Both the position numbers and the translations under genes were made by a program. The notes beneath the pieces are model-generated. The model was not told where the DNA came from and made no database searches. It worked only from the letters and a program-made list of their open reading frames with translations. A stretch of DNA of 24,658 nt, taken from contig NJDV01000022.1 in NCBI GenBank assembly GCA_002254765.1, forward strand, positions 1 through 24,658, written 5' to 3'. This DNA is from Thermoplasmatales archaeon ex4484_36 (GTDB lineage: Archaea; Thermoplasmatota; Penumbrarchaeia; Penumbrarchaeales; EX4484-36). Of the stretch, positions 1,449 through 22,902 are shown piece by piece. The stretch's first letter is position 1; the number at the start of each line of letters is the position of its first letter.

Positions 1449-1883
1449 CTATATCATTCCCCAAGTCGGCTTCTTCCTCCTGTGGATCTCTATGACCTTC
1501 GTGAGGGTCTCCCGCTCCTCCGGCGTCAGATCAGCTTTGAGAAGCTCTCTCACCCTGCCCTCCGGTATGTCAACGTAGAGGATATCCCCCTCTTTGAACT
1601 GCCTTCCTACCGTAGCCCCCTCAATAGCAACGGCCACCTCCATCCCCAACGACGCCTCCTTAATACTTTTCTTCTCGCTTTGTATGGACTTTATCACCCC
1701 AACCCTCTTCCCATCGCCCCGTATGAGGGCGTGCCCCACCCTCACTCTCCCGGAGAGCACCTTCACTCCCACAATGGCCGGATGGCTGATTCTGAAGACG
1801 TAACCCTCAAGGACCTTGATCTCGGCAGGGTGGGCGTACTGCTGTCTTCTCTCCTCCTCCAGCCCCGGGGAGGGCGTTGACAT
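1449..1883 (-). CDS. infB: aIF5B, C-terminal segment (in a different frame from the N-terminal segment)
   Basis: The C-terminal part of translation initiation factor aIF5B, covering the last beta-barrel domain (domain IV). It begins recognisably at HPAEIKVLEGYVF, followed by RISHPAIVGVKVLSGRVRVG, and ends near the usual family C-terminus. It shares no frame with the N-terminal segment. The apparent TTG/ATG-like start near 1883 lies inside the upstream frame and is unlikely to be a true start. It is best read as the second half of one broken gene. Domain IV docks the factor to eIF1A and the ribosome in the family, so separation from the GTPase would matter if real. Confidence 0.85.
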   Translation of the reverse strand: MSTPSPGLEEERRQQYAHPAEIKVLEGYVFRISHPAIVGVKVLSGRVRVGHALIRGDGKRVGVIKSIQSEKKSIKEASLGMEVAVAIEGATVGRQFKEGDILYVDIPEGRVRELLKADLTPEERETLTKVIEIHRRKKPTWGMI

Positions 1884-3102
1884 TGAAAGCCAAAATGACC
1901 CTGTGGAAGGGGTCTTCTATTGCGGAAAGCTCCTTGATGTCCCTCTCCGAGATGTCGCCAATCTCGGCCCTCGCTATCTTTATTCCCCTGTCCTTGAGCA
2001 TCTTGGAGAGGGCCTCCAAGGATCCCAAGGTGTCAGCCTTTATATAGACACCTTCTCTGTCAAGCTCTATTGAGAGGGTGCTCAGGCGCCGGACCTCTTC
2101 CAGTACCCCTTCAACCCGCTTTTCATCGCTGACCCCCCTCAAAGGAGCCCCAGCTATGACCCCCTCAATGTCCTTCGCGAGCACCTTAACCCCCGCCGCT
2201 GCCACCACCTCATTTATCTGATCGAAGCGGTGCTGGGGATCCCTTATCTCATCAAGTGGTTTGGGCTTGAGAAGGGATTTCACCTTTGTCACCACAGGCT
2301 CGGAGGTCGTTCCCACCACGATGATGTCCCCAATTTTTAAGACACCGTCATAGACTATCACATCTAGAGTCTTTCCCAGACCCTTCTCCTCCTTCACCTC
2401 AAGAACAGTTCCTTTCGCCTCGCCCTCCTCCACCTCAAGGCTCTTCTCAAGAAACCTCTGAGAGAGCCCTATGAGAAGCATCAGGAGCTCCTGAAGGCCC
2501 ACGCCCCATTTGGCGGACATGGGGACTATGGCCAGAGTGTTTGTGAAGTCGGCCACCCGATCAAACCTCTCCGCCGAGAAACCCTGCTCCCCCAAGGCTC
2601 CTATAAGATCGTAAAGCTTCTCCTCAAGCTCCTTCTGGTATCTCTCAGTCTGCTTCTTGAAATTCACTGTGAAGGGCACGTTCTCATCCCTAACCCACCC
2701 GCTCAGCCTGTCTATTTTGTTAGCTGCCACCACAAAGGGCGTTTTGAACTGTTTCAGATAGTTGAGGGACTCTATGCTCTGGGGTTTCAGACCCTCATAG
2801 ATGTCCACCACAAGGACCGCAAGGTCCGCCAGAGACCCTCCGCGGGCCCTTAAAGTGGTGAAAGCCTCATGCCCCGGCGTGTCTATGAAGAGAAGACCCG
2901 GTACTTTCAGGCTTTTATCTTTTAAAAGACCACCGCATAAATCATATATTGCCGAGGCGGGCACTTCAGTAGCACCTATGTGTTGTGTTATTCTCCCCGC
3001 CTCCCTCTGGACAACGGTGGTTCCACGTATTCTGTCCAACAATGTTGTCTTGCCGTGATCTACGTGCCCCAGAACGGAGACTATGGGTTGGCGAATTCTC
3101 AT
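1807..3102 (-). CDS. infB: Translation initiation factor aIF5B (IF2 homologue), N-terminal segment of a broken gene
   Basis: The GTPase that promotes subunit joining and initiator tRNA placement. The G1 box GHVDHGKTT is at residues 12-20, switch QHIGA near 40, G3 DTPGH at 74-78 and G4 NKID at 128-131. Domain II and the EF-like domains follow. The frame is good down to AFNVNALPG near 1865 and then turns to junk (GGGEKTAVRPP). The true continuation is in the next frame. Against the usual family layout, about 30-40 residues between the LP that ends domain III and the HPAEIKVL strand are missing, including the acidic IYRLIEDYEEW-type helix. A CCCCGGGG octamer (1863-1870) sits exactly at the break. 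The start ATG at 3102 is preceded by GGGGTGG. aIF5B is essential in archaea, so an assembly error or a very recent mutation must be considered. Confidence 0.93.
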   Translation of the reverse strand: MRIRQPIVSVLGHVDHGKTTLLDRIRGTTVVQREAGRITQHIGATEVPASAIYDLCGGLLKDKSLKVPGLLFIDTPGHEAFTTLRARGGSLADLAVLVVDIYEGLKPQSIESLNYLKQFKTPFVVAANKIDRLSGWVRDENVPFTVNFKKQTERYQKELEEKLYDLIGALGEQGFSAERFDRVADFTNTLAIVPMSAKWGVGLQELLMLLIGLSQRFLEKSLEVEEGEAKGTVLEVKEEKGLGKTLDVIVYDGVLKIGDIIVVGTTSEPVVTKVKSLLKPKPLDEIRDPQHRFDQINEVVAAAGVKVLAKDIEGVIAGAPLRGVSDEKRVEGVLEEVRRLSTLSIELDREGVYIKADTLGSLEALSKMLKDRGIKIARAEIGDISERDIKELSAIEDPFHRVILAFNVNALPGAGGGEKTAVRPPCRDQGP

Positions 3103-3136
3103 TGAACCACCCCGGGGAGGAAGGTAAGTGAAGGAG

Positions 3137-3146
3137 ATATAAAAAG
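3137..3146 (-). promoter_or_regulatory. TATA box of infB
   Basis: The minus strand reads CTTTTTATAT, about 35 bases before the infB ATG. The predicted transcript start is near 3114, inside the CCCCGGGG octamer at 3110-3117, whose G half also forms part of the ribosome site. Confidence 0.55.
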
Positions 3147-3267
3147 GGTTCTTAGAGGGCTCAGAGAATGCAGGAAGGGGAGTACGGACCCTCTATTAAT
3201 GTTTTCCCCAACAAATGTTAACCTTCGGCACTAAATTGTCATTCTCACCCCCCATGGTTGAAAATTG

Positions 3268-3299
3268 TTAAATACCCTTAAAACATTGTATCTTAAGGG
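3268..3299 (+). promoter_or_regulatory. TATA-like box with an overlapping inverted repeat (operator candidate)
   Basis: TTAAATA at 3268-3274 is directly followed by CCCTTAA (3275-3281), an 11-base spacer, and TTAAGGG (3293-3299), a perfect 7-base inverted repeat. It covers the predicted transcript start (about 3298) of the FG-GAP gene at 3339. A dimeric regulator bound here would block initiation; the winged-helix protein at 5355 in the same unit is an obvious but untested candidate. The rest of 3150-3267 holds nothing I recognise. Confidence 0.4.
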
Positions 3300-3338
3300 C
3301 AAACTGACGAGAAAAGGTGTCCTGTAAGGTGTTTACAC

Positions 3339-5030
3339 ATGTATTTAAAGTTCCTTCTTCCCGCCTTTATAATGCTTTTTTTTGTTTCGCAGCTTCCGGT
3401 CTGGGAGGAGATTGAGGGGGATGATGGAATCGAAAACTCCACCCACACCTACAGAGAATGGCAGAGGTTGGGCTATGATGACCTATGTACCTATTTTTAC
3501 CCTCGCCCCTCACCAACATATCTGCCCCCGGAGAAACCCTACGAACCTCTAATAAAAACTGCTCTTCCTGATTCCCCCCTAATATCTCCATGGCAGACTA
3601 CTTTCACTGGAAACCTTGACAACGATACTGCCCTTGAAATCGTTGTCCTTGGAAATAACACCCTCTACGCCATAGATGATACCGGCGAGCTCCTCTGGGT
3701 AAGACCACACCCACCCAGGTCAAACTTAGGCTGTGTAGGGGATGCTGATGGGGATGGAAGGGCAGAGATCTTCGTGGGAATCAAAGGTACAAATGAGAGC
3801 CAAGCAAGGCTTGAGGTCTTTAACTTTTTAGGTAAGATAGTAAAAAGCATAGCAATTGAAGGCTATGACGGGGGTGTCCCGGGTCACGTAAGAGACGGAT
3901 ATTACGATGGCTCCCCCACTGTAAGCGCCCTCAAAGATTTAAATGGAGACGGGATGGTGGAACTCTATGTGGAGCTTCACGCCTCCTACGATCTCTATCC
4001 TAGGGGACTGCTCTGCATAGACTATTCGACCGGGGAGGTGATGTGGAGCTTCATAGAGGCAACGCATATAACAAACATCATTTTCCCGGATCTCAACGGG
4101 GACGGAAGGAGAGAGATAGTCTTCGGCACCAGTGCCTCAAAGAATGGCGCTATCTGCCCCCTCACTTACACCAATGACTTTACCTCCTACGTCTTCGCCC
4201 TCACGTCTGATGGAAGAGAGCTCTGGAGATATGAAATAGGTAGGGGATTTTACCACACCATGGTTGCTTCGGCTGACATAAACGGTGATGGTGAGTTGGA
4301 GGTTATATGCTACCTTGGCGACAAAGTCCCGGAGGAGCGAACTGATTTCGGAAGGTTACGTGTACTCTCCTCCAGCGGTGAATTAGTTAGGGAATACCGC
4401 ACTCCCTATCTCTGGCTCAAACCGGCGGGCATCTATGATATAGACTCCGACGGCACTCTTGAAGCGATTGTACAGGCACAGAACACTGAAGAGGAGGTTG
4501 ACCACCTAATCATCATGAACCTATCCTCGGGGGAGATCGAGCGAGACGCCGAGGTACCCAGGACCGAGGGGAAGGATATAACCTTTGTTCCCGGGGGGAT
4601 TAATGATATAAACGGCGACGGGAAAGTGGAAATCGTGGTCTCCCCAATGATAGGAGCAAGAGTCCTTGTATACGATAGCAAATTGAATCTTCTTTGGAGT
4701 TATGGGGGTGTAAAGGCTCCTGGCATGGCCCTCATATCTGATGTAATCCCCGGGGGGGTAAACGAGATAGTTTTGACGGGAAACCACCTCACTGTGCTCT
4801 CCCTGAATGTTGACGTTGAAGTGGAGAGAGAAAGCCCAGAGGAGACCACGTACGTAATTGAGGGGAGGAGTGTAAAATTCACCGCTAATATTCTCAACAC
4901 AGGGAATGTGACATGGGTGATGGGAGTCTCCTTGCTTCAGGATGCAGGGGAGGAGCTAAACTGCCTGAAAAGCTGGATGCTTAAAACCCCACCACCCGGA
5001 GGCAGCGATACGATATCCTTTGATTGGTAG
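3339..5030 (+). CDS. Secreted FG-GAP/VCBS beta-propeller protein with start of a CARDB-like domain
   Basis: A secreted protein of 563 residues in this frame. The N-terminus is a signal peptide (FLLPAFIMLFFV). Seven calcium-loop repeats follow, with cores LDNDTALEIVV, DADGDGRAEIFVG, DLNGDGMVELYV, DLNGDGRREIVFG, DINGDGELEVIC, DIDSDGTLEAIV and DINGDGKVEIVV, as expected for a seven-bladed FG-GAP propeller. A beta-sandwich of CARDB/NEW3 type begins at about residue 495 (IEGRSVKFTANILNTGNVTW). This sandwich is cut by TAG at 5028, and coding continues in another frame, so the protein is probably incomplete. ATG 3339 follows AAGGTGT. Ligand and role are unknown; such propellers commonly bind ions, sugars or proteins outside the cell. 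Confidence 0.82.
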   Translation: MYLKFLLPAFIMLFFVSQLPVWEEIEGDDGIENSTHTYREWQRLGYDDLCTYFYPRPSPTYLPPEKPYEPLIKTALPDSPLISPWQTTFTGNLDNDTALEIVVLGNNTLYAIDDTGELLWVRPHPPRSNLGCVGDADGDGRAEIFVGIKGTNESQARLEVFNFLGKIVKSIAIEGYDGGVPGHVRDGYYDGSPTVSALKDLNGDGMVELYVELHASYDLYPRGLLCIDYSTGEVMWSFIEATHITNIIFPDLNGDGRREIVFGTSASKNGAICPLTYTNDFTSYVFALTSDGRELWRYEIGRGFYHTMVASADINGDGELEVICYLGDKVPEERTDFGRLRVLSSSGELVREYRTPYLWLKPAGIYDIDSDGTLEAIVQAQNTEEEVDHLIIMNLSSGEIERDAEVPRTEGKDITFVPGGINDINGDGKVEIVVSPMIGARVLVYDSKLNLLWSYGGVKAPGMALISDVIPGGVNEIVLTGNHLTVLSLNVDVEVERESPEETTYVIEGRSVKFTANILNTGNVTWVMGVSLLQDAGEELNCLKSWMLKTPPPGGSDTISFDW

Positions 5031-5425: not shown

Positions 5426-5840
5426 TCACCCGATAAGTGATCACAAGATGAGGGAGAGGATCTATACCCTCATAAAGGAACACCCTGGAATAAACCCCTC
5501 AGAGATATGCAAGAAGCTTGGGATTGCCCATTATAATACTGTGAAACACCACTTACGGGTTCTGAGGGATCGTGAACAGATAGTCCTGAAGAGAGACCCC
5601 GTGAAGAGGAGGTTTATCACATGCTACCCCACCGATAAGAATTATGAAGAGCTTGGTTATCTCTCCGACGCAGAACGGTATCTCCTTGAAGTGATTAAGC
5701 GCTCCCCGGGGATTACCCGCAAGGAACTTACGGAATTGTGGCCCTACTCCCAGGCCTACCTCACAAGATGTCTCAAGTCCCTTCAGGTAAGGGGGGCTGT
5801 GATAAAAGAGGGCAGGAGGTACCGGAGAAGGGGTATATAA
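5355..5840 (+). CDS. Double winged-helix transcriptional regulator
   Basis: A predicted DNA-binding protein of up to 161 residues. The first winged helix runs from MRERIYTLIKEHPGINPSEI through NTVKHHLRVLRDRE. The second runs from SDAERYLLEVIKRSPGITRK to the end. A short hydrophobic-basic element (FPFIPLYRR) precedes the first domain. The corresponding FFPLYSKL precedes the winged helices of the protein at 14197, so both belong to one family. In many euryarchaea this family is joined through a membrane segment to an extracellular sensor; here no membrane segment is visible. The frame is offset +1 from the upstream secreted domain and overlaps it. The start is uncertain: GTG 5355, or the internal ATG 5448, which would remove the IPLY element. 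Confidence 0.7.
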   Translation: MGWGKHLLKRRTFPFIPLYRRDYDHPISDHKMRERIYTLIKEHPGINPSEICKKLGIAHYNTVKHHLRVLRDREQIVLKRDPVKRRFITCYPTDKNYEELGYLSDAERYLLEVIKRSPGITRKELTELWPYSQAYLTRCLKSLQVRGAVIKEGRRYRRRGI

Positions 5841-5900
5841 TTACATTCCCGCTCATAGCATTGATCTTCTTCCAAGAAATTTCACATTTTTTGCAAAAAA

Positions 5901-6830: not shown

Positions 6831-6860
6831 GCTGCCCCCGGGGGGCGTACCGGGGGCAGC
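6831..6860. repeat. 10-base inverted repeat with CCCCGGGG in its core, between convergent genes
   Basis: GCTGCCCCCG (6831-6840) and CGGGGGCAGC (6851-6860) are perfect complements around a 10-base loop. The element starts 11 bases after the stop of the gene at 5992 and faces the RecQ remnant on the other strand. It has no T tract, so it is not a typical archaeal terminator; it may stabilise the 3' end. The octamer at 6836-6843 lies across stem and loop. I see nothing else in 6861-6988. Confidence 0.55.
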
Positions 6861-6988: not shown

Positions 6989-7609
6989 TCACATGTGATT
7001 TTCTATAACCTCCAAAAAAGTCCTCCCGTACTCCTCAGCCTTCTTCTCTCCAACTCCCCAGATCTCAAGAAGCTCAGCGTAGCTTCGGGGCTTTTCAAGT
7101 GCCATCTCAAGAAGGGTTCTGTTCTGGAAGATCACGTAGGGTGGACACCCCCTCTCCTCAGCCATCTCATCTCTAAGCGCCTTTAGCTTCTCGTATAGCT
7201 CAAGGTCCTCAGGCACCTCCAGCTCCACAGGGGAGAGGTCGGCAGCCGGCAAGAGGACAATGGACCTATCAGTGTTGAGGGCCTTAATCCCTTTGGGGGT
7301 GATAGCTAGAAGCTTTCCCCCGGGGATAAAAGAGATGTATTTCTCCTCAACAAGCCTTCTAAGAGTTCCCGAGATTACCCCTCTGTCAACCCCTGAGAGA
7401 ACTCCGAAAAGGGGGGAGACCCTCTCCCACCTCTTTATGAAGTCGCTTCTTAGCCTTCCCTTGAGTAGGTCTACTATATAGCTCCTTCCGGCTTCTCCGC
7501 TAAAGCTTTCAACAGCCTTCAGAAGAAACCTAGCAACCGCATCCTCAAGGGAGCGGTACTCACCCAGAAATATGTCCCCCCTTTCGGTGGCGTGAAAGGG
7601 ACTATGAGT
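6989..7609 (-). pseudogene. RecQ-family helicase C-terminal remnant (RQC winged helix + HRDC), no normal start
   Basis: The minus strand is open from 7609 to the TGA at 6989 (206 codons) but has no ATG or GTG. The only TTG, at 7252, falls at the start of the last domain. Translation gives a RecQ tail: GDIFLGEYRSLEDA resembles the last part of the RecQ zinc site (CDxCLGEY) with both cysteines replaced. A winged helix like RQC follows (IVDLLKGRLRSDFIKRWERV ... GVISGTLRRLVEEKYISFIP), then an HRDC domain (LYEKLKALRDEMAEERGCPP ... EIWGVGEKKAEEYG). The helicase core is absent. A TATA-like TTTTTTATAG (about 7626-7635) and a GGGGGGA ribosome-like site (7576-7582) precede a CTG at 7567, so expression of a 192-residue RQC-HRDC protein from a rare start is conceivable. 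A decayed gene is more likely. Confidence 0.65.
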
Positions 7610-8773: not shown

Positions 8774-9415
8774 TCAGAGCAGACCATAGGATATATCCTT
8801 ATCGCCAGAACACTCCTCCTCTTTATTCTTGAGAAAATCGTCCAGTGTAACGTTCCCCGGGGTGCTTTTAAGTTTCAGTTTGACCTCTCTTCGGTACCTC
8901 TCAGGCATCCTCCTTTTGAACATCCCCAAATTTCTTCTCCGGGGTTCGTACTGGCTAAAGTAGTAAGACTCCCAGAGCACACTCCCCTCATCCTCCCTCC
9001 CTCCGCAGCCCAGCTCCCTTCTCAGAACCTTTATGGAACCTTTTACCTCCACCCTCAGGCGCCCCCTCTCGCTGAGAAGGGAGAGGCAAAAAGAGCGCTC
9101 ATCCCCCACAACTATCAGGTTCCCCGGGAAGCGATGAGCGAAGTGGTCCGCTAACATCTGTTTTATCCGGTGTTTAGGGCTTGCATATCCAACCAGAATC
9201 CCTCTCCGGGGCTCTTCAAACCTTATGAAACTTTTCAGGTAGTGGTACTCCGTCCCCACCTCCCGGATCATTCGTCTTATCCGTCTCACCTTCTCGTTCT
9301 CGGGCAGAAGAAGGTCGTCCTCAGAGATGCCCCGGGCCAGAAGTATGTCGGCCTGCCGTAAGTCTCTATGGCGCTTAAGGTAATTAATAGAACTCTCCCT
9401 CAACTCCCCCACCAC
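8774..9415 (-). CDS. DUF4130 / TIGR03915-type protein, partner of the radical SAM enzyme
   Basis: A 213-residue protein with the DUF4130 pattern: VRRIRRMIREVGTEYHYLKS, then FIRFEEPRRGILVGYASPKH, a DHFAHRF core, and a tail rich in charged residues (MPERYRREVKLKLKS). DUF4130 proteins are found beside, or fused to, uracil-DNA-glycosylase-like domains and are encoded next to a dedicated radical SAM enzyme. The pair is annotated as putative DNA repair, but the reaction has not been shown to my knowledge. The GTG at 9415 overlaps the end of the radical SAM gene by 16 bases, so translation is coupled. The frame is open further upstream without a normal start, and homologues are somewhat longer at the N-terminus. 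Confidence 0.8.
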   Translation of the reverse strand: MVGELRESSINYLKRHRDLRQADILLARGISEDDLLLPENEKVRRIRRMIREVGTEYHYLKSFIRFEEPRRGILVGYASPKHRIKQMLADHFAHRFPGNLIVVGDERSFCLSLLSERGRLRVEVKGSIKVLRRELGCGGREDEGSVLWESYYFSQYEPRRRNLGMFKRRMPERYRREVKLKLKSTPGNVTLDDFLKNKEEECSGDKDISYGLL

Positions 9416-10593
9416 CTCAGCGTACTCTGTCTCCAGCCCCTGAGGAGGAGGTATGGCCAGGCCCTCTTCAGAGCTACTCCCAGTTCACTAAGTTCCTCCG
9501 GCGATTCTATTCTTCTCCGTTTTCTGATTCTGATTATTCTCCCTGCGCTTACAGGTCCTATCCCGGGGACAGTGAGGAGCTCCTTAAAAGAGGCGGTATT
9601 GGGGTCAACAGGGCCGTCAAGTAGGCACTCTGCAAGTCTCTTCTTGGGATCCTCCGCTGGGAGGTAGCCCTCATCGTCAAATACGCAGAACAGCTCCTTC
9701 TCAGAGAAACCGTAAACCCTGTGGAGCCAATCCAACTGATAGTGTCTTTTCTCCCTCTGAAGAGGTACAGACTCACGCCCTTCAAAGGGGGTCCCTTCAA
9801 TAGAAGTGAAGGCGGAGTAGTAGACTCTCCTAACTCCCATCTTCCTGTATTCATAGACTGCTCTCCTGAAAATATCAAGGTCCCTCTCCTCTGCTCCCCC
9901 CACTATCATCTGGGTGGTGTGCCCCGCAGGGAGAGGGGTTCTTCTCATCTCCTCTCTTATAAAGCTCTGCCTTCTCAAGATATCTGTCAGGTAGTCCTTG
10001 CTGGGGCTTATCTCCCCCATGGTGGAGCTGGATACAGTCTCTATGTTTATGCTCACCCTGTCCGCAAGCTCCATGGCCCTTCTGATGTGATCCCTTCCTA
10101 CCCCGGGGAGTATCTTCAGGTGCACATAACCTTCAAAACCGTACTTTCCTCTTAGAAGTTCCACGGCTTCTATCATCTCCTCCATGGTCCTCTCCTCATC
10201 CCTCCCAACACCGGAACTTAAGAAGAGACCCTCGATATAGTTCTCCTTATAGAGTTTCAGAACTATTTTCGCCAGCTCCTCAGGAGTGAAGGAGTATTTC
10301 CCGCATCCCCTACTCATGGCCCCGTTGGGGCAGTAGTAGCAGCTGTGAGTGCAGGCGTTGGTATAGAGGGTCTTGAAGAGGCTCACACACCTCCCATCAG
10401 GAGTAAAAGCCTGACAGACCCCTGGGAAGGACACTGCACCAATGCGTCTGAATCCCGAGACACTCCTACTGCTGGAAGTGGAGGCACAAACATCATGCCT
10501 GCTCCCCCTGCCAAGCGCGCTCACCTTGGCCTGAAGCTCCACGTCTAAAGCAGTGGAGGAAGAGAGATGCCCCAGTTTATCTGCTCCATTCAC
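9400..10593 (-). CDS. Putative DNA modification/repair radical SAM protein (TIGR03916 type) with C-terminal helix-hairpin-helix
   Basis: 397 residues from GTG 10593. The N-terminus has DVCASTSSSR, typical of this family, then the 4Fe-4S motif Cys-x3-Cys-x2-Cys in ACTHSCYYCPNG (Cys81, Cys85, Cys88). A SAM barrel follows, with SSGVGRDEERTMEE and INIETVSS. The C-terminus carries a helix-hairpin-helix (LLTVPGIGPVSAGRII), which implies DNA contact. The frame opens at a TTG at 10614, but that lies at the TATA box; the box predicts a transcript start near 10595, which favours the GTG at 10593, nearly leaderless. It forms a two-gene operon with the DUF4130 protein. Confidence 0.88.
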   Translation of the reverse strand: MNGADKLGHLSSSTALDVELQAKVSALGRGSRHDVCASTSSSRSVSGFRRIGAVSFPGVCQAFTPDGRCVSLFKTLYTNACTHSCYYCPNGAMSRGCGKYSFTPEELAKIVLKLYKENYIEGLFLSSGVGRDEERTMEEMIEAVELLRGKYGFEGYVHLKILPGVGRDHIRRAMELADRVSINIETVSSSTMGEISPSKDYLTDILRRQSFIREEMRRTPLPAGHTTQMIVGGAEERDLDIFRRAVYEYRKMGVRRVYYSAFTSIEGTPFEGRESVPLQREKRHYQLDWLHRVYGFSEKELFCVFDDEGYLPAEDPKKRLAECLLDGPVDPNTASFKELLTVPGIGPVSAGRIIRIRKRRRIESPEELSELGVALKRAWPYLLLRGWRQSTLRWWGS

Positions 10594-10615
10594 AGGGAAT
10601 AATCCACTCAACAAG

Positions 10616-11260: not shown

Positions 11261-11263
11261 GGG

Positions 11264-11962
11264 ATGCCCGTGGAGGTGTACCTCATCTGTCACAGCACCG
11301 CTGTAGTGGCATGCGGTGAGATGACGCTCCTCTTCGACTATTCTGAGAAGGTTTGCGGGAGGGCGGTGAGGGAACTGACAGTTAGAGCCCTCTCCGGGAG
11401 AAGCACGGTGGCCCTTTTCTCTCATGCCCACGGTGACCATTTCGATATTGCAGTCCGGACCCTCCCCGGGGTGGAGCTCTTCGTCCTACCCCCTGATGTC
11501 CCAGAGAGCGAAGAAAAGCTGCTCACCCCCTCCATAAAGGTCAAGGTGCGGGATGAAAGAGAGCTCCCCGGGGGACTCTCCTTGAAGACATATCCAAGCA
11601 CCGACGAGGGGGTGGCCTATCTCATTGAAGGGCCGAATGGTGGTAGGGTCTTCTTCGCAGGCGACCTTGCACTGTGGGCCTGGCCCGGGGATGAGGAGGA
11701 AGATATAAGGAAGGCTATAGAGGAATGGAAGAGCATTTTGAAGGAGGTTTCAAAAGAGTTGGTGGACGTGGCGTTCCTTGTGGCGGATCCGAGGCTACCG
11801 CACCTGGGAGGGTTTGAAGAGGCTCTGGACGCATTAAAGCCCAGGCATGCATTCCCCATACACAACTTCGGGAATCTTGAATACTTAAAGAGGCTTTGGA
11901 GGGAAGGGGTGCACGTCCCCACCTCTTTGGGGGAGAAATTCCGCCTCATCCTCCCTTTTTAG
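11264..11962 (+). CDS. Metallo-beta-lactamase-fold hydrolase (UlaG-like)
   Basis: A 232-residue metal-dependent hydrolase fold. The metal motif HxHxDH is at residues 54-59 (SHAHGDHFD), a second ligand Asp lies in FFAGDLALW, and a late His is in PIHNF. The first strand lacks a signal peptide, so the protein is cytoplasmic. The substrate is unknown; UlaG-like members act on phosphodiesters or lactones. ATG 11264 is four bases past the SDR stop, with GTGAGGG overlapping that stop, so the two are co-transcribed. Confidence 0.85.
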   Translation: MPVEVYLICHSTAVVACGEMTLLFDYSEKVCGRAVRELTVRALSGRSTVALFSHAHGDHFDIAVRTLPGVELFVLPPDVPESEEKLLTPSIKVKVRDERELPGGLSLKTYPSTDEGVAYLIEGPNGGRVFFAGDLALWAWPGDEEEDIRKAIEEWKSILKEVSKELVDVAFLVADPRLPHLGGFEEALDALKPRHAFPIHNFGNLEYLKRLWREGVHVPTSLGEKFRLILPF

Positions 11963-12239: not shown

Positions 12240-12287
12240 GGGTGGTAGGATAAGAATAACTTGGACAAAGGTCAGGTAAGTGGGTCT

Positions 12288-14728: not shown

Positions 14729-16843
14729 ATGGAGGAGACGGTGGAGATAGCAAAGAGCCCTTCCACAGAGGATCTCATTGAGGACTGGATGGACTATTTC
14801 GAGCTGAAAGGCTTAATAGGCGAGATAAACGACATCGCTTCAATTCCCACCCGAAATAGTCTCTACATCTCTTACATGGACCTCTTCTCTCTCAAAGAGA
14901 GCATAGCGAGGGCCCTGAGGGAGCACCCCCGGCTCGTCCTGAGGGCAGGTGAGCTGGCCATCAGGAAGATCCTGGGCCCGGAGGAGGCCGGCAGGAGAAT
15001 AAACATACGATTCACCGACCTCCCGTCGGAGTTCATTGTAAACATAAGGGATCTGAGAAGTGTTCACCTGGACACCCTTGTGATGGTGGAGGGGCTCGTC
15101 AGGAAGGCCACGGACGTGAAGCCCCGCCTTAGAAAAGGGGTTTTTATCTGCCAGAGGTGCGGCCACGAGATAGAGATTGAAATGGACTACCAATACAGAG
15201 AACCTCTGGAGTGTCCAGAGGAGGAGGGGGGGTGTGGGAGGAAAGCGTCATCTACCAAGTTTGAACTTGACATGAAAAAATCAACCTTCGTAGATGTGCA
15301 GAAGATCGAGATACAGGAGTCCCCGGAGTCGCTCACCGGCGGGGATCAGCCAAAGAGGCTCTCTCTCTATTTCTACGACGACATAGCCGGAAAGGTCTTC
15401 CCCGGGGACCAGGTCAAGATATGGGGCATCTTAAGAGCGAGACAGAAGAGAGACGCCTACGGGAAGCTGCCCCTCTTTGACATATACCTTGAGGTTAACA
15501 ACTACGACAAGAGGGAAAAAAGCTACCTTGAGCTCGAGATCACCGAGGAGGATGAGATAGAGATAAGAAAATACGCAAAGAGGATGGACATCTACCAGCT
15601 CCTCATCAACTCCCTCTCTCCATCCATATACGGTATGGAGGCTGAGAAGCTCTCTTTGATCCTTCAGCTCTTCGGCGGAGTGGAGAAGAACCTTCCAGAC
15701 GGCACAAGGGTCCGGGGGGATATCCACGTTCTCCTGGTGGGAGACCCGGGGACAGCGAAATCTCAACTTCTACGCTATATAGCGGACCTCGCACCCCGGG
15801 GAATATACACCTCAGGGAAGTCCTCCTCAGCCGCTGGCCTCACGGCAGCGGTGGTGAAGGACGAGTTCGGCGAGGGAAACTTCACTCTCGAGGCTGGAGC
15901 GCTGGTTCTGGCGGATGGGGGGATAGCCTGTATAGACGAGATAGACAAGATGAGCGATGTTGACCGCTCGGTGATGCATACCGCCATGGAGCAGCAGGTG
16001 GTGGCCCTCTCAAAGGCGGGAATCCAGGCGACTTTAAGGGCCAGGTGCTCCATCCTTGCGGCTGCAAACCCCAAGTTCGGCCGTTTCGGAGAGAGGGAGA
16101 TCGTGGACCAGATAAACATACCCCCCGTTCTCCTATCGCGCTTTGATATTATCTTCGCCATAAGGGATCTTCCGAACCCTGATCTCGACCGGAGAAAGGC
16201 CGTCCACATCCTCAACCACCACCAGTGGGGTGAGAAGAAGAGGAAGATAGAGATGACCACAAAGGGAAGAGGGAAGGTGGAGGATCTCGAAGAGATTGAG
16301 GAGAAGGAGTTCATACCTCCTGAGCTTCTGAGAAAATACGTCTCCTACGCCAGGCAGAACATCTTCCCAGTGCTCACGGAGGAGGCGAAGGATAAAATCA
16401 TAGATTACTTCCTCACCCTCCGCTCCCGCTCCCACGAGGAGGGAGGCATGAAGATCATTCCCATAACCACAAGACAGCTTGAAGCCATAATACGTCTGGC
16501 CGAGGCCTCCGCCCGAATACGGCTGAGCGAAGAGGTAACAGTGGAGGACGCTGACAGGGCGATTAAGGTCTTCAACCGTTATCTGGATTCCATAACTGAG
16601 GGAGGGGGGATAGACGCCATATACACCGGCAGGTCACTGGCCAAGAGAGAGAGGCTTCAGGTGATCCTTAAGATAATTAGCGAACTGGACAGCATAACAG
16701 GGGAGGGTGCCTCTATAGAGGCTATCACAGACCGGGCAAAGGAGGAGGGGCTCACCAGGGACGAGGTTGGGGATGTAATAAAACAGCTCCTGACGAGCGG
16801 ATATATATATGAGCCGAGACACAATGTGTTCAAGACGCTGTGA
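14729..16843 (+). CDS. mcm: Replicative DNA helicase MCM
   Basis: The hexameric AAA+ 3'-5' helicase that unwinds the replication fork. 704 residues, full length for the family. The N-terminal domain carries a zinc site with Cys141-x2-Cys144 and Cys162/Cys169. An OB-fold and beta-hairpin region follows. Walker A is GDPGTAKS (338-345), Walker B CIDEID (Asp403-Glu404), sensor 1 AAANPKFG, and the arginine finger is Arg471 in LLSRFD. A small winged helix ends the protein (AKEEGLTRDEVGDVIKQLL). ATG 14729 follows GGGGAGGTGG, 17 bases after the winged-helix stop. A second ATG at 14725 is out of frame. No intein is present at the Walker A site, where archaeal MCM inteins often sit. Confidence 0.98.
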   Translation: MEETVEIAKSPSTEDLIEDWMDYFELKGLIGEINDIASIPTRNSLYISYMDLFSLKESIARALREHPRLVLRAGELAIRKILGPEEAGRRINIRFTDLPSEFIVNIRDLRSVHLDTLVMVEGLVRKATDVKPRLRKGVFICQRCGHEIEIEMDYQYREPLECPEEEGGCGRKASSTKFELDMKKSTFVDVQKIEIQESPESLTGGDQPKRLSLYFYDDIAGKVFPGDQVKIWGILRARQKRDAYGKLPLFDIYLEVNNYDKREKSYLELEITEEDEIEIRKYAKRMDIYQLLINSLSPSIYGMEAEKLSLILQLFGGVEKNLPDGTRVRGDIHVLLVGDPGTAKSQLLRYIADLAPRGIYTSGKSSSAAGLTAAVVKDEFGEGNFTLEAGALVLADGGIACIDEIDKMSDVDRSVMHTAMEQQVVALSKAGIQATLRARCSILAAANPKFGRFGEREIVDQINIPPVLLSRFDIIFAIRDLPNPDLDRRKAVHILNHHQWGEKKRKIEMTTKGRGKVEDLEEIEEKEFIPPELLRKYVSYARQNIFPVLTEEAKDKIIDYFLTLRSRSHEEGGMKIIPITTRQLEAIIRLAEASARIRLSEEVTVEDADRAIKVFNRYLDSITEGGGIDAIYTGRSLAKRERLQVILKIISELDSITGEGASIEAITDRAKEEGLTRDEVGDVIKQLLTSGYIYEPRHNVFKTL

Positions 16844-17178: not shown

Positions 17179-18144
17179 GTGCGGGAACTTGTCAAGGTCT
17201 GGAAGGAGCCGGAGGTCCTTCAGGGGAAAAGAATACAGGCCCTTGTTGCCATCATAACCACCCGGGGATGCTCCTGGTTCAGGCGGGGGGGCGGGTGCAC
17301 CATGTGCGGATACAATATCCCCCGGGGGGACGTTGAGATAAACGGTGAGGTGCTGAAAGGTGAGCTTGAGAGAGTGGCCAGTGCTTTCGGAGGCGAGGAG
17401 CTCATCAAAATATACACCTCAGGCTCCTTCCTTGACCCCGGGGAGGTACCGCAGGAGGCTGTTGAGCACTTCGTTGAGAGTCTCGGGAGGCGGGCAGAGG
17501 AGTTGGGGGTAAGACCGCACCTTCTGGTTGAGAGCAGACCTGAATATGTGACAGAAGAGGCTTTAGAGCCCCTTATCTCTAACTTCTCTGTGACGGTGGC
17601 TCAGGGGCTCGAGACCTCAAGCGACGTGATAAGGGAGGAATCCATAAGAAAGGGGTTCAGAACTGTTGATTTCCTTAGGGCCCTTGAGGTTCTTAAGAGG
17701 ACAGGAGCAGGCTCAAAGGTATATCTGCTTCTGAAGCCACCATTCCTCACAGAGAGGGAGGCTATAGAGGACGTCGTAGGCAGCTTTGAGTTCCTCAAAG
17801 ACCTCTACGTCCAGACCATCTCCGTGAATCCTGTTAACGTTCAGAAGGGCACCCTTGTAGAGAGGCTCTATAGGGAGGGGAAGTACAGGCCTCCATGGCT
17901 GTGGAGCCTCATCTACGTCCTCAAAGTAGGGAAGGCCATAGCTGGAGATAGGAGGGTCATGAGCGAGCCCAGCGGTGGGGGGAGGCCCCGGGGTCCCCAC
18001 AACTGCTTCAGGTGTGACAGAAGGGTTCTTAGGGCCATACGGGACTTCTCCTACTCCCCTGACAACAGCCTCCGCCGCCTTGAGGTTGACCGGTGCGTCT
18101 GTATAAGGTCCTGGAGGTTTCAAACCGCCTTCAGCTTCGCCTGA
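17179..18144 (+). CDS. Archaeosine biosynthesis radical SAM protein RaSEA
   Basis: The radical SAM lyase that, with ArcS, converts the lysine adduct of preQ0 at tRNA position 15 into archaeosine, which stabilises the tRNA core. 321 residues. Family-specific cluster spacing is seen: GC (Cys31) SWFRRGGGC (Cys40) TMC (Cys43) GY. Further signatures are IYTSGSFLDPGE, LLVESRPEYVTEE and GLETSSDVIREESIRKGF. The C-terminal metal site is NCFRC, with DRCVC later. The GTG at 17179 follows GAGGTG overlapping the DUF424 stop, so the genes are co-transcribed. It ends five bases from the convergent CBS gene. Confidence 0.9.
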   Translation: MRELVKVWKEPEVLQGKRIQALVAIITTRGCSWFRRGGGCTMCGYNIPRGDVEINGEVLKGELERVASAFGGEELIKIYTSGSFLDPGEVPQEAVEHFVESLGRRAEELGVRPHLLVESRPEYVTEEALEPLISNFSVTVAQGLETSSDVIREESIRKGFRTVDFLRALEVLKRTGAGSKVYLLLKPPFLTEREAIEDVVGSFEFLKDLYVQTISVNPVNVQKGTLVERLYREGKYRPPWLWSLIYVLKVGKAIAGDRRVMSEPSGGGRPRGPHNCFRCDRRVLRAIRDFSYSPDNSLRRLEVDRCVCIRSWRFQTAFSFA

Positions 18145-18148
18145 TGAG

Positions 18149-19029: not shown

Positions 19030-19060
19030 CCGAGCTCACCTTCTACCCCTATATGAACTC

Positions 19061-19072
19061 CATATAATAACC
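19061..19072 (-). promoter_or_regulatory. TATA box of the CBS gene
   Basis: The minus strand reads GGTTATTATATG. The predicted start is near 19039, just before AGGTGAG and the ATG. Confidence 0.45.
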
Positions 19073-19126
19073 TTTGGAGAATTGAAAATCCATCAGTGAT
19101 GCCCCGGTGCAGAAGGCCGAAAAGAT

Positions 19127-19138
19127 AAGATTAATAAC
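19127..19138 (+). promoter_or_regulatory. TATA box of purE-guaA
   Basis: AAGATTAATAAC lies 23-34 bases before the purE ATG, so the transcript should be leaderless. No ribosome site is seen before 19161, which agrees. Confidence 0.5.
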
Positions 19139-19160
19139 ATGAGACATCTTCTGCATCCCC

Positions 19161-19640
19161 ATGACAGGAGCGAAGGTTGCCATCGTGGCCGGGAGCTACT
19201 CGGACCTTGAAGTCATAAAGAAGGCAAAGAAGGTCCTGGATGAACTGGGGGTTGAACACGATGTCTTCATCTACTCAGCTCACAGAACCCCTGAGGAGCT
19301 TGTTAGTTTGATCCGGGAGGATGCCTACAGCTGCTACATCGCTATTGCGGGCCTCTCGGCGGCTCTCCCGGGGGTCATTGCCGCCCACACCACCCGCCCG
19401 GTGATAGGTGTCCCAGTCTCCGGAAAACTCAATCTTGATTCAATACTCTCCATAGTTCAGATGCCCCCCGGGGTCCCCGTGGCCGCCGTGGGCTTGGACA
19501 GGGGGGAGAACGCCGCACTTCTTGCCGCATCCATACTCAGCCTCTCCCACCCAGAGATAGAGAAGAGCTTGAAGGAGTACAGGGTGAGAATGAAAAAAAA
19601 GACCTTAGAAGCGAACGAGAAGGTAAGGGGTGAGCTCTGA
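19161..19640 (+). CDS. purE: PurE, N5-CAIR mutase / AIR carboxylase
   Basis: The purine biosynthesis enzyme that forms CAIR, 159 residues. Motifs are AGSYSDLEV (residues 10-18), the SAHRTPEEL substrate loop (Ser40 to His42), GLSAALPGVIAAHT, PVIGVPVSGKL and IVQMPPGVPVAAVG. The bacterial class I loop normally has an AHLPG histidine; here it is GLSAALPG, the archaeal pattern nearer class II, which may use AIR and CO2 directly. That choice is inference. ATG 19161 is probably leaderless. The 3' end overlaps guaA by 11 bases. Confidence 0.95.
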   Translation: MTGAKVAIVAGSYSDLEVIKKAKKVLDELGVEHDVFIYSAHRTPEELVSLIREDAYSCYIAIAGLSAALPGVIAAHTTRPVIGVPVSGKLNLDSILSIVQMPPGVPVAAVGLDRGENAALLAASILSLSHPEIEKSLKEYRVRMKKKTLEANEKVRGEL

Positions 19641-21495
19641 GTTGAAGGGAGAGAGCATTGTAATTCTGGACAACGGTGGCCAGTTCACCCATCTGATAGC
19701 CAACAGCCTGAGGCGCTTCTCCCAGGTGAGGACGGAGATAAGGGTGGCGGACACCCCTGCGGAGGAGCTTGAGGAATACGGTGGGATAATACTCTCCGGC
19801 AGCCCCTACTCCATCTACGAGGAGGACTCCCCCCAGGTGGACAATAAGATCTTTAACCTTCCCGTCCCCATTCTAGGCCTCTGCTACGGGATGCACCAGA
19901 TAGCCCTCCACTATGGGGGAAAAGTGAAAAGGACTGGCAGAAGGGAGTACGGCTACGCCAGGCTCAAGGTCAGGACCCGCGACCCAATATTCAAGGGATT
20001 GCCCAGAAGCCAAAGGGTCTGGATGTCCCACGGGGATTCCGTGACATCACTCCCTGAAGGCTTCAGGGTCATCGGCAGCACCTCCGGCTGCCCGATAGCT
20101 GCCTTCTCGGACCCCGTGAGGAGAAGGTGGGGCCTACAATTTCACCCGGAGGTGGAGGATACCCGCTGGGGGGACGATATACTCTTCAATTTCGCAAGGG
20201 TAATATGCGGTCTTGAAGGGAGATGGACTGTTGAGAACTTCACCGATATGATCCTGAAGAACATAAGGGAGGAGGTGGGGGAGAAGGAGGTTCTGTCGCT
20301 GGTCTCCGGCGGGGTGGACTCCACCGTGGTGGCAGCCCTTCTCCTGAGGGCCCTTCCCCCTGAGAAGGTGTATTCCATCCACATCAACACCGGTCTGATG
20401 AGGAAGAACGAGTCCGAAGAGGTCATTGTAGCCCTGAAAGCCCTGGGGATTAAGAACCTCATCTACAGGGATCGCTCTGACCTTTTCCTGAAGCGCCTTG
20501 AAGGGGTCCACGACCCGGAGGAGAAGAGGAAGATCATCGGGGAGCTATTCGTTGAGCTTGTAGAGGAAGAGGCGAGAAGACTGAACCTTGAGGACTGGCT
20601 ACTTGCCCAAGGAACCCTCTATCCGGACACCATAGAGTCGGGGGCAACAAAGTACTCCGATGTCATAAAGACCCACCACAACCGTGTGAACATCATTCTG
20701 AGGATGATCGAGGAGGGCAGGGTTATAGAGCCCGTGCACGAGCTATACAAGGCGGAGGTGCGGGAGGTGGGTAGGGCTCTGGGACTGCCCGAAGAGATCG
20801 TTGAGCGCCACCCCTTCCCCGGGCCAGGCCTAGGGATAAGATACCTGTGCCTCTCGGAGGAGAAGGCTGAAGAATATTGGAGGGAGGCACACCGGGCGGA
20901 GGAGGGGATCAGGGAGGGGGGGAGGGTGGAGGATATATTCGATTCCCATAAAGTCAGGCTCAAGGGCTACAGGGTACTGCCCATAAAGAGTGTGGGTGTG
21001 AAGGGAGATGCACGCTCCTATGATCTTCCTTTAGCGGTCTGGATCGAAGACGCTCCCACCGTCAGGATGCAGCGCAGGATGAAACTGGCTGCCACGGAGA
21101 TAACGGGGGTGCTCCCTGAGATAAATCGCGTGGTGCTGATACTGTCCCCAGATGAGATCGGTGAGCCTGAAAACTATCCTGTTTACATAAAGAGGGAGAG
21201 AGTAGAGCTCTTAAGAGAATTGGATTGGGTTGTAACTGAGAACCTAAAGAGCATGAACCTTTACAGGAGAATCTGGCAGTTCCCCACAATAATAACACCT
21301 GTGAGGATTGGGGAAAGCGATCCTTTGATAGTGTTAAGACCCATAAAGTCCAAGAGAGCTATGACCGCCGAGAGCTATCCGCTTCCCCTGAGATTTTTAA
21401 GAAAAGTTCTCAAGAGCTTTGAGAGGGTCGGTGGAAGGATAGCTGTGGGTTTGGACCTCACATCCAAACCCCCGGGGACAATAGAGTGGGAGTAA
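19630..21495 (+). CDS. guaA: GMP synthase, single chain, long form
   Basis: Glutamine-hydrolysing GMP synthase, XMP to GMP. 621 residues. The N-terminal class I amidotransferase has nucleophile Cys85 in GLCYGMHQ and His172/Glu174 in FHPEVED. The ATP-PPase follows with the loop SGGVDST (226-232). The dimerisation part is longer than in bacteria (about 515-525 residues) by roughly 100 residues (INRVVLILSPDEIGEPENYP through TIITPVRIGES), as in the long eukaryotic-like form. It ends TSKPPGTIEWE, the family terminus. Most euryarchaea encode the two parts as separate proteins, so one chain is notable. GTG 19630 follows AAGGTAAGG inside purE; translation is coupled. Confidence 0.95.
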   Translation: MSSELKGESIVILDNGGQFTHLIANSLRRFSQVRTEIRVADTPAEELEEYGGIILSGSPYSIYEEDSPQVDNKIFNLPVPILGLCYGMHQIALHYGGKVKRTGRREYGYARLKVRTRDPIFKGLPRSQRVWMSHGDSVTSLPEGFRVIGSTSGCPIAAFSDPVRRRWGLQFHPEVEDTRWGDDILFNFARVICGLEGRWTVENFTDMILKNIREEVGEKEVLSLVSGGVDSTVVAALLLRALPPEKVYSIHINTGLMRKNESEEVIVALKALGIKNLIYRDRSDLFLKRLEGVHDPEEKRKIIGELFVELVEEEARRLNLEDWLLAQGTLYPDTIESGATKYSDVIKTHHNRVNIILRMIEEGRVIEPVHELYKAEVREVGRALGLPEEIVERHPFPGPGLGIRYLCLSEEKAEEYWREAHRAEEGIREGGRVEDIFDSHKVRLKGYRVLPIKSVGVKGDARSYDLPLAVWIEDAPTVRMQRRMKLAATEITGVLPEINRVVLILSPDEIGEPENYPVYIKRERVELLRELDWVVTENLKSMNLYRRIWQFPTIITPVRIGESDPLIVLRPIKSKRAMTAESYPLPLRFLRKVLKSFERVGGRIAVGLDLTSKPPGTIEWE

Positions 21496-22680
21496 CTATC
21501 CCTCCGCTATCTCAAGGAGCCTCTTCTCAAAGGCTTTCAGACCCTCCTGGGCCCTCGTCCCCTCCCCCCTCTTCATCCACCTTTCAACCACCTTAAGCTC
21601 TTTTAGAAGCTCACTCTTCACCTCTCCCGGGAGGACAAGGGCACCGACGAGCTCTGTATACTTCTCCAGCCTCTTTTTAAGGGCCTCATTCACCCCACCC
21701 TCCCCCCACCTGAGAAGCAACTTCACCTTAACCGCAAATTGATAAGCCTCCTTATATCGCCTCTCCTCAAGCCTCTTTCGGGCAAGTTTGAGAAGAAACT
21801 CCTCAAAAGAGGTGTCACCACCCGTACCCTTCATCATCTCCTCCGCCTCCACTATCACCCTTTTAACAATCTCGCCCATCAGTCTCTCCCGATAGGGCTC
21901 TATCTCCCCGGTGAGCTCCTTTATCTTGAGATCTGACTTCAGCAGGAATCCCTCTTTCACCGCCTTCTTCACCTCAAGAAACTCCGCCCACCACTTATCT
22001 ATTTTTTCTGCATTCTCTCCCAGAATCTCTCGGCTATCTTGAAGCCGCTTAAGTATGCGCTCCAGCCTCTCCAGCTTCAGCTCAAGGTTGAACTTGAACT
22101 GCTCCCTGGGGAGAAGAAGCTTCTCCGTGAGCCTCTCACCCAACTCCTTAAGCCCTTTGAAATCCTCTTCCCTGAGCTTCTTCTTCATCTGGATGAACAT
22201 CTCCGAGATCTCCTTCCCCTCCTCACCACCCACGTTCTTCATCTGCATGTAATCAAATATCTTCTCAACATAATCTAGGGCATCGTGGTACTCCGTCTCC
22301 GGGAGCGCCAATTCCTCCTCCTCTCCAACGCCCTCCGTTATAATATCTGAAGGTTGAATGGAAAAGGCAATGAAGTGCCGGAAAGCCTCCTGAACCCGCT
22401 CTTCCAGTAGGGCCTTCTCAAGCTCGTCAAGAAATTCTCTAAATCTCCCCGAAAGCTTGTAATTAAGGCCCTTACCCTTAAAGTACGATATAATCTGGGT
22501 GAGGAACTCCATCAGAGTCTTCCTCAAGAAAGCCTTTGCCAGCTTCTCATTTCCAAGAGCTATGGTCTCCTCAACTAGTCTCAGTTTCTTTTCTATGTCC
22601 TCTCGGTTCTCAAGAAGACTCCCAAACAATTCAACGAGGGACTTAACCCTCCCGTATTCCACGTCGTTTGCAGCTTTCAT
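21496..22680 (-). CDS. Uncharacterised coiled-coil protein
   Basis: 394 residues, not recognised. Very rich in Glu, Lys and Leu and almost entirely helical, with long coiled-coil-like stretches (NLELKLERLERILKRLQDSR; EIEPYRERLMGEIVKRVIVE). There is no signal peptide, membrane segment or catalytic motif; cysteine is absent. A short loop GVGEEEELALPETEYHD splits the helical parts at about residue 117. ATG 22680 follows a GGGGATG stretch. Its stop abuts the guaA stop with no base between (TAACTA). It has its own promoter. A structural or scaffold role is possible but not shown. Confidence 0.78.
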   Translation of the reverse strand: MKAANDVEYGRVKSLVELFGSLLENREDIEKKLRLVEETIALGNEKLAKAFLRKTLMEFLTQIISYFKGKGLNYKLSGRFREFLDELEKALLEERVQEAFRHFIAFSIQPSDIITEGVGEEEELALPETEYHDALDYVEKIFDYMQMKNVGGEEGKEISEMFIQMKKKLREEDFKGLKELGERLTEKLLLPREQFKFNLELKLERLERILKRLQDSREILGENAEKIDKWWAEFLEVKKAVKEGFLLKSDLKIKELTGEIEPYRERLMGEIVKRVIVEAEEMMKGTGGDTSFEEFLLKLARKRLEERRYKEAYQFAVKVKLLLRWGEGGVNEALKKRLEKYTELVGALVLPGEVKSELLKELKVVERWMKRGEGTRAQEGLKAFEKRLLEIAEG

Positions 22681-22715
22681 TCCGCATCCCCGGGAGGTTT
22701 GAAATATAGGGTAAT

Positions 22716-22727
22716 GATTATTTAACT
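22716..22727 (-). promoter_or_regulatory. TATA box of the coiled-coil gene
   Basis: The minus strand reads AAGTTAAATAAT, giving a start near 22694 and a short leader. Confidence 0.45.
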
Positions 22728-22823
22728 TTGCTTATGGAGGGCGGAGGAGTGTGACGGACACCAAATTCATATCAGGGTTCGGTCAGACCTGTGGGTGGGG
22801 CAGTTTCGGTGGCTTTAAGTAAA

Positions 22824-22835
22824 CTTTTTTAAATC
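22824..22835 (+). promoter_or_regulatory. TATA box of the FG-GAP gene at 22903
   Basis: CTTTTTTAAATC gives a start near 22857. The leader then carries the octamer CCCCGGGG (22871-22878) inside a G-rich run and a purine-rich ribosome site before the ATG codons at 22903 and 22930. I see nothing else in 22728-22902. Confidence 0.45.
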
Positions 22836-22902
22836 GCTATGTAATAATCACCAGCAGCTCTCAGCGCATTCCCCGGGGGGGGCGGGGGTTTGAGGAGAAG
22901 AG

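Follow-up and report, generated by a model that had tools for sequence, protein, structure and literature searches.

HIP1 (GCGATCGC), a highly iterated palindrome (HIP), was described in 1995, and its cause is still debated (PMC4390886). In Elhai's account of the class, every cyanobacterial genome in which a word is highly over-represented also encodes a putative methyltransferase that could act on that word, and some genomes are rich in HIP1 yet lack a methyltransferase for CGATCG (PMC4390886). Here, we analyzed a 24,658-nucleotide stretch of DNA (the window) from Thermoplasmatales archaeon ex4484_36, positions 1 to 24,658 of contig NJDV01000022.1, for its copies of the palindromic octamer CCCCGGGG, which consists of 100% G+C. 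The octamer occurs about once per 2-3 kb in this archaeon and in a related member of the Thermoplasmata. Its excess is present in both genus members compared and absent from 8 order relatives, and its behaviour is that of a duplex-DNA word rather than of a codon feature.

Abundance of the octamer in two related archaea

The window is contig C9 of a metagenome-assembled genome (MAG), G000, of 1,023,425 bp with a completeness estimate of 54.1%, and the sole congener compared, G001, is about 1.4 Mb in size and 80% complete. The whole G000 MAG contains 507 copies of CCCCGGGG (0.495 per kb) vs. 45 of a control word, GGGGCCCC, which has the letters of the octamer in reversed order; G001 contains 521 copies (0.37 per kb) vs. 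12. A sequence-only reading of the window had proposed a highly iterated palindrome in the style of HIP1, and these counts, together with the rank of the octamer as the dominant 8-mer, bear that proposal out.

Two samples were drawn from each genome. The first (G000, 32 stretches, 335,798 bp; G001, 49 stretches, 305,043 bp, including 17,299 masked N) was the basis for the 8-mer ranking, codon shuffles, spacing, run-length matrix, near-misses, tripeptide codons, and intergenic counts. The enlarged sample (G000, 42 stretches, 423,150 bp, 41% of the MAG, GC content 53.8%; G001, 79 stretches, 451,299 readable bp, GC content 49.2%) was used for Markov counts, alignments, protein pairs, frame changes, and local GC and density. 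Under an order-3 Markov model, the 208 copies observed in the enlarged G000 sample compare with 21.9 expected when octamers were removed before model training (masked) and 29.6 when they were retained, and the 176 copies in G001 with 10.6 and 15.5, respectively. Sampled densities were similar, at 0.49 (G000) and 0.39 (G001) per kb, though the order-3 expectation differs twofold. CCCCGGGG was the commonest readable 8-mer in the first sample of either genome and ranked first of the 256 palindromic 8-mers by the order-3 ratio of observed to expected counts (O/E; 7.0 in G000 and 11.0 in G001). By the same measure across all 8-mers, it came first in G001; in G000 a single word, present in 5 copies, ranked above it. 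Sites fell about every 2 kb with random-like spacing (coefficient of variation [CV] of 1.00 in G000 and 0.95 in G001), and a periodic arrangement was rejected on these values and on spacings that were even modulo 3. Density climbed with local GC content, from 0.23 to 0.83 per kb over the G000 bins from 45% up.

Relatives, to which the sequence-only reading had also pointed, carried the excess in the congener and not in the order, as the 8 order relatives had 20 to 126 copies and ratios to the control word of 0.2 to 1.9. Among the phylum genomes with at least 100 copies (42 of 389, selected by eye from the count table), the ratio exceeded 5 only in G001 (43) and G000 (11), and the next ratios were 5.0 in G036 and 4.2 in G241. 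Family f8 had up to 909 copies but 328 controls, counts from which we take it to be GC-rich. G036, G065, G069, G223, G230, G349, and others had fewer copies (34 to 120) at ratios of 5 to 34, and are possible weaker or independent cases.

The enriched unit was four C followed by four G, or longer runs containing that. Runs of n C followed by m G, with n and m of at least 4, were 4- to 16-fold over the order-3 expectation and formed the only strongly enriched class. Runs of three paired with runs of four or more were 1.6- to 2.7-fold over it, three-by-three runs stood at 0.8 to 1.0, and runs with one side of 1 or 2 at 0.5 to 1.1. Runs of G followed by C reached at most 1.3, and the four-by-four class was at 0.7 in the order relatives G002, G003, and G005 (5 stretches each). 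The hexamer CCCGGG has no excess of its own, because ACCCGGGT, GCCCGGGC, and TCCCGGGA were close to expectation in both genomes. Extension of the octamer to CCCCCGGGGG brought no added excess (18 and 12 copies vs. 22.4 and 14.4 expected at order 8).

Near-misses were graded mainly outward. Counting only one-off words that did not overlap a full site, changes at the outermost position gave ratios in G000/G001 of 1.26/1.33 for A, 1.98/1.68 for G, and 2.44/2.58 for T. The word CCCGGGGG, a 3+5 run, was enriched at 2.35 in G000 and 2.53 in G001. Inner one-off changes lay between 0.1 and 1.5, with a single exception taken up below, and CCTCGGGG was lowered against codon shuffles with overlaps kept (0.56 in G000 and 0.50 in G001).

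Such a word might also arise from codon and amino-acid bias, with Pro-Gly written as CCC GGG, added to G/C runs; CCC and GGG are the top Pro and Gly codons in both samples, and phase 2 is the commonest phase of the octamer. When synonymous codons were shuffled within each gene 100 times, with genes predicted by a simple codon-score method and not a standard annotator, the 144 genic copies of G000 stood against 26.2 expected (5.5-fold) and the 98 of G001 against 10.8 (9-fold). Every phase was in excess in both genomes, phase 0 proportionally most (phases 0/1/2, 30/47/67 observed vs. 2.8/5.4/18.0 in G000 and 10/32/56 vs. 0.6/2.8/7.4 in G001), and the control word showed no excess over the shuffles (14 vs. 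14.1 in G000; 3 vs. 4.4 in G001). Pro-Arg-Gly was spelled CCC CGG GGN in 30 of 45 instances in the G000 sample and in 10 of 22 in G001; the CGG share of Arg codons was 9.9% and 6.5%, respectively. Other permissive Pro-Gly contexts in the G000 sample carried the octamer in 25 to 34% of cases. Intergenic DNA held 24 copies vs. 2.6 expected in G000 and 13 vs. 0.85 in G001 (order 3, masked), at densities of 0.511 per kb compared with 0.499 in genes (G000) and 0.544 compared with 0.371 (G001). Pro-Gly codon choice is therefore insufficient, as the sequence-only reading had argued. That reading had also named two outcomes that would count against it, an O/E close to 1 after Markov and codon correction and an excess that vanished in intergenic DNA; neither was obtained, both having been tested on the samples. 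With no excess of G-then-C runs either, and with ACCCGGGT and its two companions near expectation, we regard codon bias and G/C runs as a very improbable source of the octamer. We give no more credence to an artefact of assembly, contamination, or homopolymers. One of the 19 copies in the window does coincide with a frame change, but two separate MAGs both show the excess, and of the sites that could be judged, a frame change crossed the octamer at 1 of 31 in G000, within the 1.6-5.0% range of the control words there, and at 0 of 7 in G001. The two genomes disagreed on position within genes, with 7 of 144 copies of G000 and 24 of 98 of G001 in the first decile; this may reflect the simple gene starts, and position was not used.

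Sites in the window and stretches free of them

A recount agreed with the 19 exact octamers first reported for the window, the first beginning at 1863 and the last ending at 22878. Dinucleotide shuffles of the window (n = 100) gave a mean of 1.13 copies and a maximum of 4, and Markov models of orders 1/2/3/4 predicted 1.18/1.33/1.88/6.13 copies unmasked and 1.04/1.04/1.13/2.03 with octamers masked; we attribute the unmasked order-4 rise to 5-mers contributed by the octamer itself. The 35-fold excess originally claimed holds against base composition, but relative to order 3 the window has a 10- to 17-fold excess and the sample of G000 one of 7- to 9.5-fold. The octamer was the commonest 8-mer of the window, in which the runner-up palindromic 8-mer had 5 copies. 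Copies had been said to lie in both gene orientations, in more than one codon phase, and in non-coding DNA, and they do: 15 of the 19 are within predicted genes on either strand (three in phase 0, three in phase 1, and nine in phase 2) and 4 are outside. The first 1862 and last 1780 bases contain no copy, also as described, though these gaps are uninformative because spacings in the G000 sample look random (CV of 1.00). The sites are as follows.

Copy 1, 1863..1870: aIF5B gene (minus strand), at a reading-frame change
Copy 2, 3110..3117: intergenic, immediately upstream of the predicted aIF5B start
Copy 3, 4748..4755: gene 3339-5027 (plus strand), phase 2
Copy 4, 5704..5711: gene 5355-5837 (plus strand), phase 1 (Ser-Pro-Gly)
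Copy 5, 6836..6843: outside predicted genes
Copy 6, 7318..7325: outside predicted genes
Copy 7, 8855..8862: gene 8777-9415 (minus strand), phase 1
Copy 8, 10101..10108: gene 9403-10614 (minus strand), phase 2
Copy 9, 11464..11471: gene 11264-11959 (plus strand), phase 2
Copy 10, 11566..11573: gene 11264-11959 (plus strand), phase 2
Copy 11, 14162..14169: gene 12261-14228 (plus strand), phase 2
Copy 12, 15400..15407: MCM-like helicase gene 14729-16840 (plus strand), phase 2; absent at the aligned G001 place
Copy 13, 15794..15801: MCM-like helicase gene 14729-16840 (plus strand), phase 0 (Pro-Arg-Gly); absent at the aligned G001 place
Copy 14, 17320..17327: gene 17179-18141 (plus strand), phase 0; absent at the aligned G001 place
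Copy 15, 17436..17443: gene 17179-18141 (plus strand), phase 2; absent at the aligned G001 place
Copy 16, 17986..17993: gene 17179-18141 (plus strand), phase 0; absent at the aligned G001 place
Copy 17, 19466..19473: gene 19161-19637 (plus strand), phase 2
Copy 18, 21470..21477: GMP synthase-like gene 19630-21492 (plus strand), near the 3' end, phase 1
Copy 19, 22871..22878: outside predicted genes

By reading, the window carries archaeal genes, such as those for aIF5B and MCM, and a scan of genome contigs with the MCM protein returned one matching locus, in the congener. At copy 1, a frame change (window 1807-1883) interrupts the aIF5B gene, so this copy may be either a sequence error or the product of a real indel that created the octamer; the other 18 copies are unaffected. 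A repeat-bearing protein (FG-GAP-like by reading) and the helix-turn-helix-like region that follows it (window 3339-5840) occupy three overlapping frames, which suggests that the frame also changes near 5024 and 5390, away from any octamer.

Other words and stretches in the samples also stood out. CTTAAG was over-represented in both (order-3 O/E of 2.0 in G000 and 1.7 in G001), and CGATCG, the HIP1 core, was under-represented (O/E of 0.30 and 0.17; 6 and 2 copies). Two of the 4 octamer-free stretches among the 42 of G000, chosen after the fact, are L006 (contig C6, 9,105 bp) and L151 (contig C39, 15,357 bp), in which 4.5 and 7.5 copies were expected. Their tetranucleotide distance from each other is 0.14, and that of each from the rest is 0.30-0.32. 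L006 codes for a polymerase, a clamp loader, and a RecA-like protein, along with clamp and primase genes assigned by reading. The two stretches are perhaps a virus or other replicon escaping the host bias. A scan of viral contigs found no relatives of the polymerase of the octamer-free contigs and one weak match, of 34 residues, to their AAA protein.

Shared sites, candidate enzymes, and possible causes

Sites were compared between the two species in 48 nucleotide alignments (59,760 columns, 71.3% identity), with alignments above 92% identity and overlapping ones excluded from the conservation counts. Ten of 30 G000 sites were identical in G001, compared with 19 of 287 all-G/C control 8-mers, and 10 of 23 G001 sites were identical in G000, compared with 19 of 124. 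Among 155 reciprocal protein pairs, we considered places where both proteins permit the octamer, excluding pairs at 35% identity or less. G001 had the octamer at 12 of the 27 such places where G000 has one and at 5 of the 36 where it does not (Fisher p = 0.0099, three frames pooled). Sites thus persist above controls, yet over half have turned over, a pattern that would fit a drive, or weak selection acting on these sites as a class, better than regulatory sites fixed in place.

CCCCGGGG can be methylated only at cytosine. PF01555 had one match in each genome. The G000 match (contig C72) encodes 233 amino acids of an N4/N6-type methyltransferase, cut off at the contig end, and matches both PF01555 and PF01170; G001 has no second PF01555 match as its counterpart. 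The G001 match (contig C109, in a pair of genes at L082 1132-2968) is a 316-amino-acid protein that fits a PADLOC Type II methyltransferase model (E = 2.7e-148). Its neighbour, of 294 amino acids, has no Pfam, NCBIfam, or PADLOC match and is taken to be a nuclease from its position and a D...EVK motif. As a query, the C109 methyltransferase found no match in the available part of G000 (54% complete). Relatives 62% and 57% identical to it occur in G011 and G047, neither with a strong octamer excess (15 vs. 5 controls and 301 vs. 125). Among the best 120 of 8,000 scored entries in a protein database, the other 119 are 75-88% identical to it and, where named, are from archaea and bacteria. Its contig is octamer-free up to base 3,033 and has 13 copies in the remaining 16.6 kb. 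We set this restriction-modification pair aside, as it was not found in the available part of G000 and is related to genes of kin that lack a strong excess; it is probably a mobile system of recent arrival and not the cause.

PF02384 had two matches that were also discarded. The one in G000 (contig C12, exactly at the cut-off) is by reading a small HemK/PrmC-like protein. The one in G001 (contig C87, L165 649-2082) is a 477-amino-acid NPPY-type N6 methyltransferase-like protein, whose family and motif indicate an adenine target, and CCCCGGGG has no adenine. Its gene adjoins a TrmO-like gene (named by reading), and there is no other frame of at least 90 amino acids in the 3 kb examined. PF02086 had no match in G000 or G001, and NucS had none above the cut-off in 12 genomes. 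A MutS-type gene is present in G000 and G001, and in 11 of the 12 genomes overall. Because both MAGs are incomplete (54% and 80%), these searches leave methylation possible, as one or both assemblies may lack an enzyme that the two species have in common.

We are confident that a real drive or selection at the DNA level, of a HIP-like kind, lies behind the octamer, and we think it probable that CCCCGGGG is a genus-specific HIP-like DNA signal accumulated by drive or weak selection. In such a scheme, a symmetric (dimeric) protein or a cytosine-modifying enzyme would recognise the duplex, and recognition, via weak selection or via biased repair or recombination, would drive near-matches to the full octamer and protect them. 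Its most concrete version would be a mismatch-repair drive guided by methylation, as Elhai proposed for the HIPs of cyanobacteria. With methylation, repair that is methyl-directed and favours recognised sites would yield the outward grading and the density; without it, weak selection on a binding site would yield both as well.

A number of results weigh against such a signal. No protein recognising CCCCGGGG was identified. The suggestion in the sequence-only reading that the word is a methylation target was not confirmed, as PF00145 had matches in 0 of 12 genomes (positive controls matched in 10 of 14 known genomes) and no N4/N6-type methyltransferase was found in both MAGs, nor any PF01555-type gene common to them as a shared enzyme; Vsr was likewise found in 0 of 12 genomes. 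A C-to-T excess at the central CpG was absent (CCCTGGGG had an O/E of 1.07 and 1.03), which argues against unrepaired 5-methylcytosine at that position and leaves N4-methylcytosine or no methylation, which we rate about equal. The outward grading has exceptions: the inner change CGCCGGGG reached 2.00 in G001, and against codon shuffles the grading was not clean, with inner CTCCGGGG and CCACGGGG at 1.87 and 1.66 in G000 and 1.35 and 1.48 in G001 (overlaps with full sites kept). Turnover is large: of the 30 G000 sites in alignments, 20 differ in G001, including every one of the 5 window sites that align to contig C89. At the permissive places, single frames were not significant (p of 1.0, 0.14, and 0.067), with small counts. 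Codons at identical tripeptides of degenerate residues were identical in 4 of 11 cases with the octamer vs. 466 of 2,478 without, which is not decisive, and in 3 of 9 vs. 8 of 69 in the all-G/C subset.

Within the HIP-like reading, more than one agent could act on the octamer. It is possible, though short of probable, that CCCCGGGG is a methylation-linked HIP proper, with an orphan cytosine methyltransferase (making N4- or 5-methylcytosine) that acts on it or on CCCGGG and methyl-directed mismatch repair that favours recognised sites, as in Elhai's model. The outer-position deviation resembles that of cyanobacterial words, in which Elhai reports the largest deviations at positions 1 and 8 (PMC4390886), both genomes have a MutS-type gene, and G000 has the contig-end N4/N6-type fragment. 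Against this stand the lack of a PF00145 match in any of 12 genomes and of any second PF01555 match in G001 as a counterpart to that fragment. The sole PF01555 gene of G001 also fits poorly, lying beside a nuclease-like gene, not found in the available part of G000, and having relatives in two genomes without a strong excess as well as close relatives in many archaea and bacteria. We hold to be just as possible a selected binding site, without methylation, for a nucleoid, segregation, replication, repair, or recombination protein. The palindrome suits a dimeric protein, intergenic density is equal to or above genic density with random spacing, the two genomes have similar densities despite their different expectations, and sites are shared between the species above controls; rapid turnover of individual sites speaks against it, and no candidate protein was found, though no search was aimed at one. 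Chi- and KOPS-type signals, moreover, rely on orientation, which a palindrome cannot provide. A DNA-uptake sequence, by which kin DNA carrying CCCCGGGG would be taken up preferentially and then recombined as in Haemophilus and Neisseria, appears unlikely, and we know of no archaeal uptake word. Graded one-off over-representation has been described as molecular drive for uptake sequences, but the Haemophilus and Neisseria words are not palindromic (PMC1939737). It is similarly unlikely that none of these three accounts applies.

Comparison with known iterated words

CCCCGGGG works like a HIP, but is archaeal and has a different word. Like HIP1 and the other words of the class treated by Elhai, it is a perfect GC-rich palindrome, the dominant 8-mer, and lineage-limited. 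Its core hexamer, CCCGGG, is not in excess outside the octamer, as Elhai describes for CGATCG in most genomes, and its one-off words are concentrated at the first and last positions, less cleanly here against codon shuffles. It differs in its archaeal host, the class having been described in cyanobacteria, and in having no GATC core. It also differs in that no matching methyltransferase was found in both MAGs (54% and 80% complete) with PF00145, PF01555, PF02384, and PF02086. An absent enzyme does not by itself exclude membership, because some HIP1-rich genomes lack a CGATCG methyltransferase. The density of 0.37-0.50 per kb is at or below the low end of the range of roughly 0.5-2.5 per kb that Elhai gives for the HIP1 class.

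The alternate cyanobacterial HIPs (GGCGCC in Calothrix PCC 7103, GCsGC in Cyanothece PCC 7822, and rCCGGy in Oscillatoria PCC 10802) are likewise GC-only or GC-rich palindromes prominent in one lineage. They differ in that a predicted methyltransferase covers their word, whereas none was found for CCCCGGGG, and in that they belong to single cyanobacteria, whereas the CCCCGGGG excess is common to two species about 71% identical in aligned DNA. The uptake sequences of Pasteurellaceae and Neisseriaceae share with the octamer a genome-wide distribution of a short word and a graded enrichment of one-off words, but are non-palindromic. Among archaea, the targets of persistent orphan methyltransferases (CTAG, GTAC, AGCT, GGCC, and others) are also genome-wide, lineage-tied palindromes, but are 4-5 bp long (PMC10609329), whereas CCCCGGGG is an over-represented 8-bp word without a known enzyme. 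CTAG is generally under-represented in Halobacteria, and the main text of that survey of archaeal restriction-modification gives no CCCGGG or CCGG target (PMC10609329). Literature searches, including one for the octamer itself, had no such archaeal word among the matches listed, which does not prove its absence from print.

An archaeal HIP kept without any DNA methyltransferase, and read by a symmetric DNA-binding, repair, or chromosome-organising protein of this genus and not of its order relatives, is a tentative prospect; if it is true, HIPs arose independently in a second domain and need not depend on methylation. Next to the cyanobacterial words, CCCCGGGG is a second, independent case of the HIP-like type from another, distant domain; the word differs, and the border between both genus members and the 8 order relatives is sharp. 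The responsible gene can be looked for among those that the genus has and its sister lineages lack, a comparison that also puts the methyltransferase explanation of HIPs to the test.

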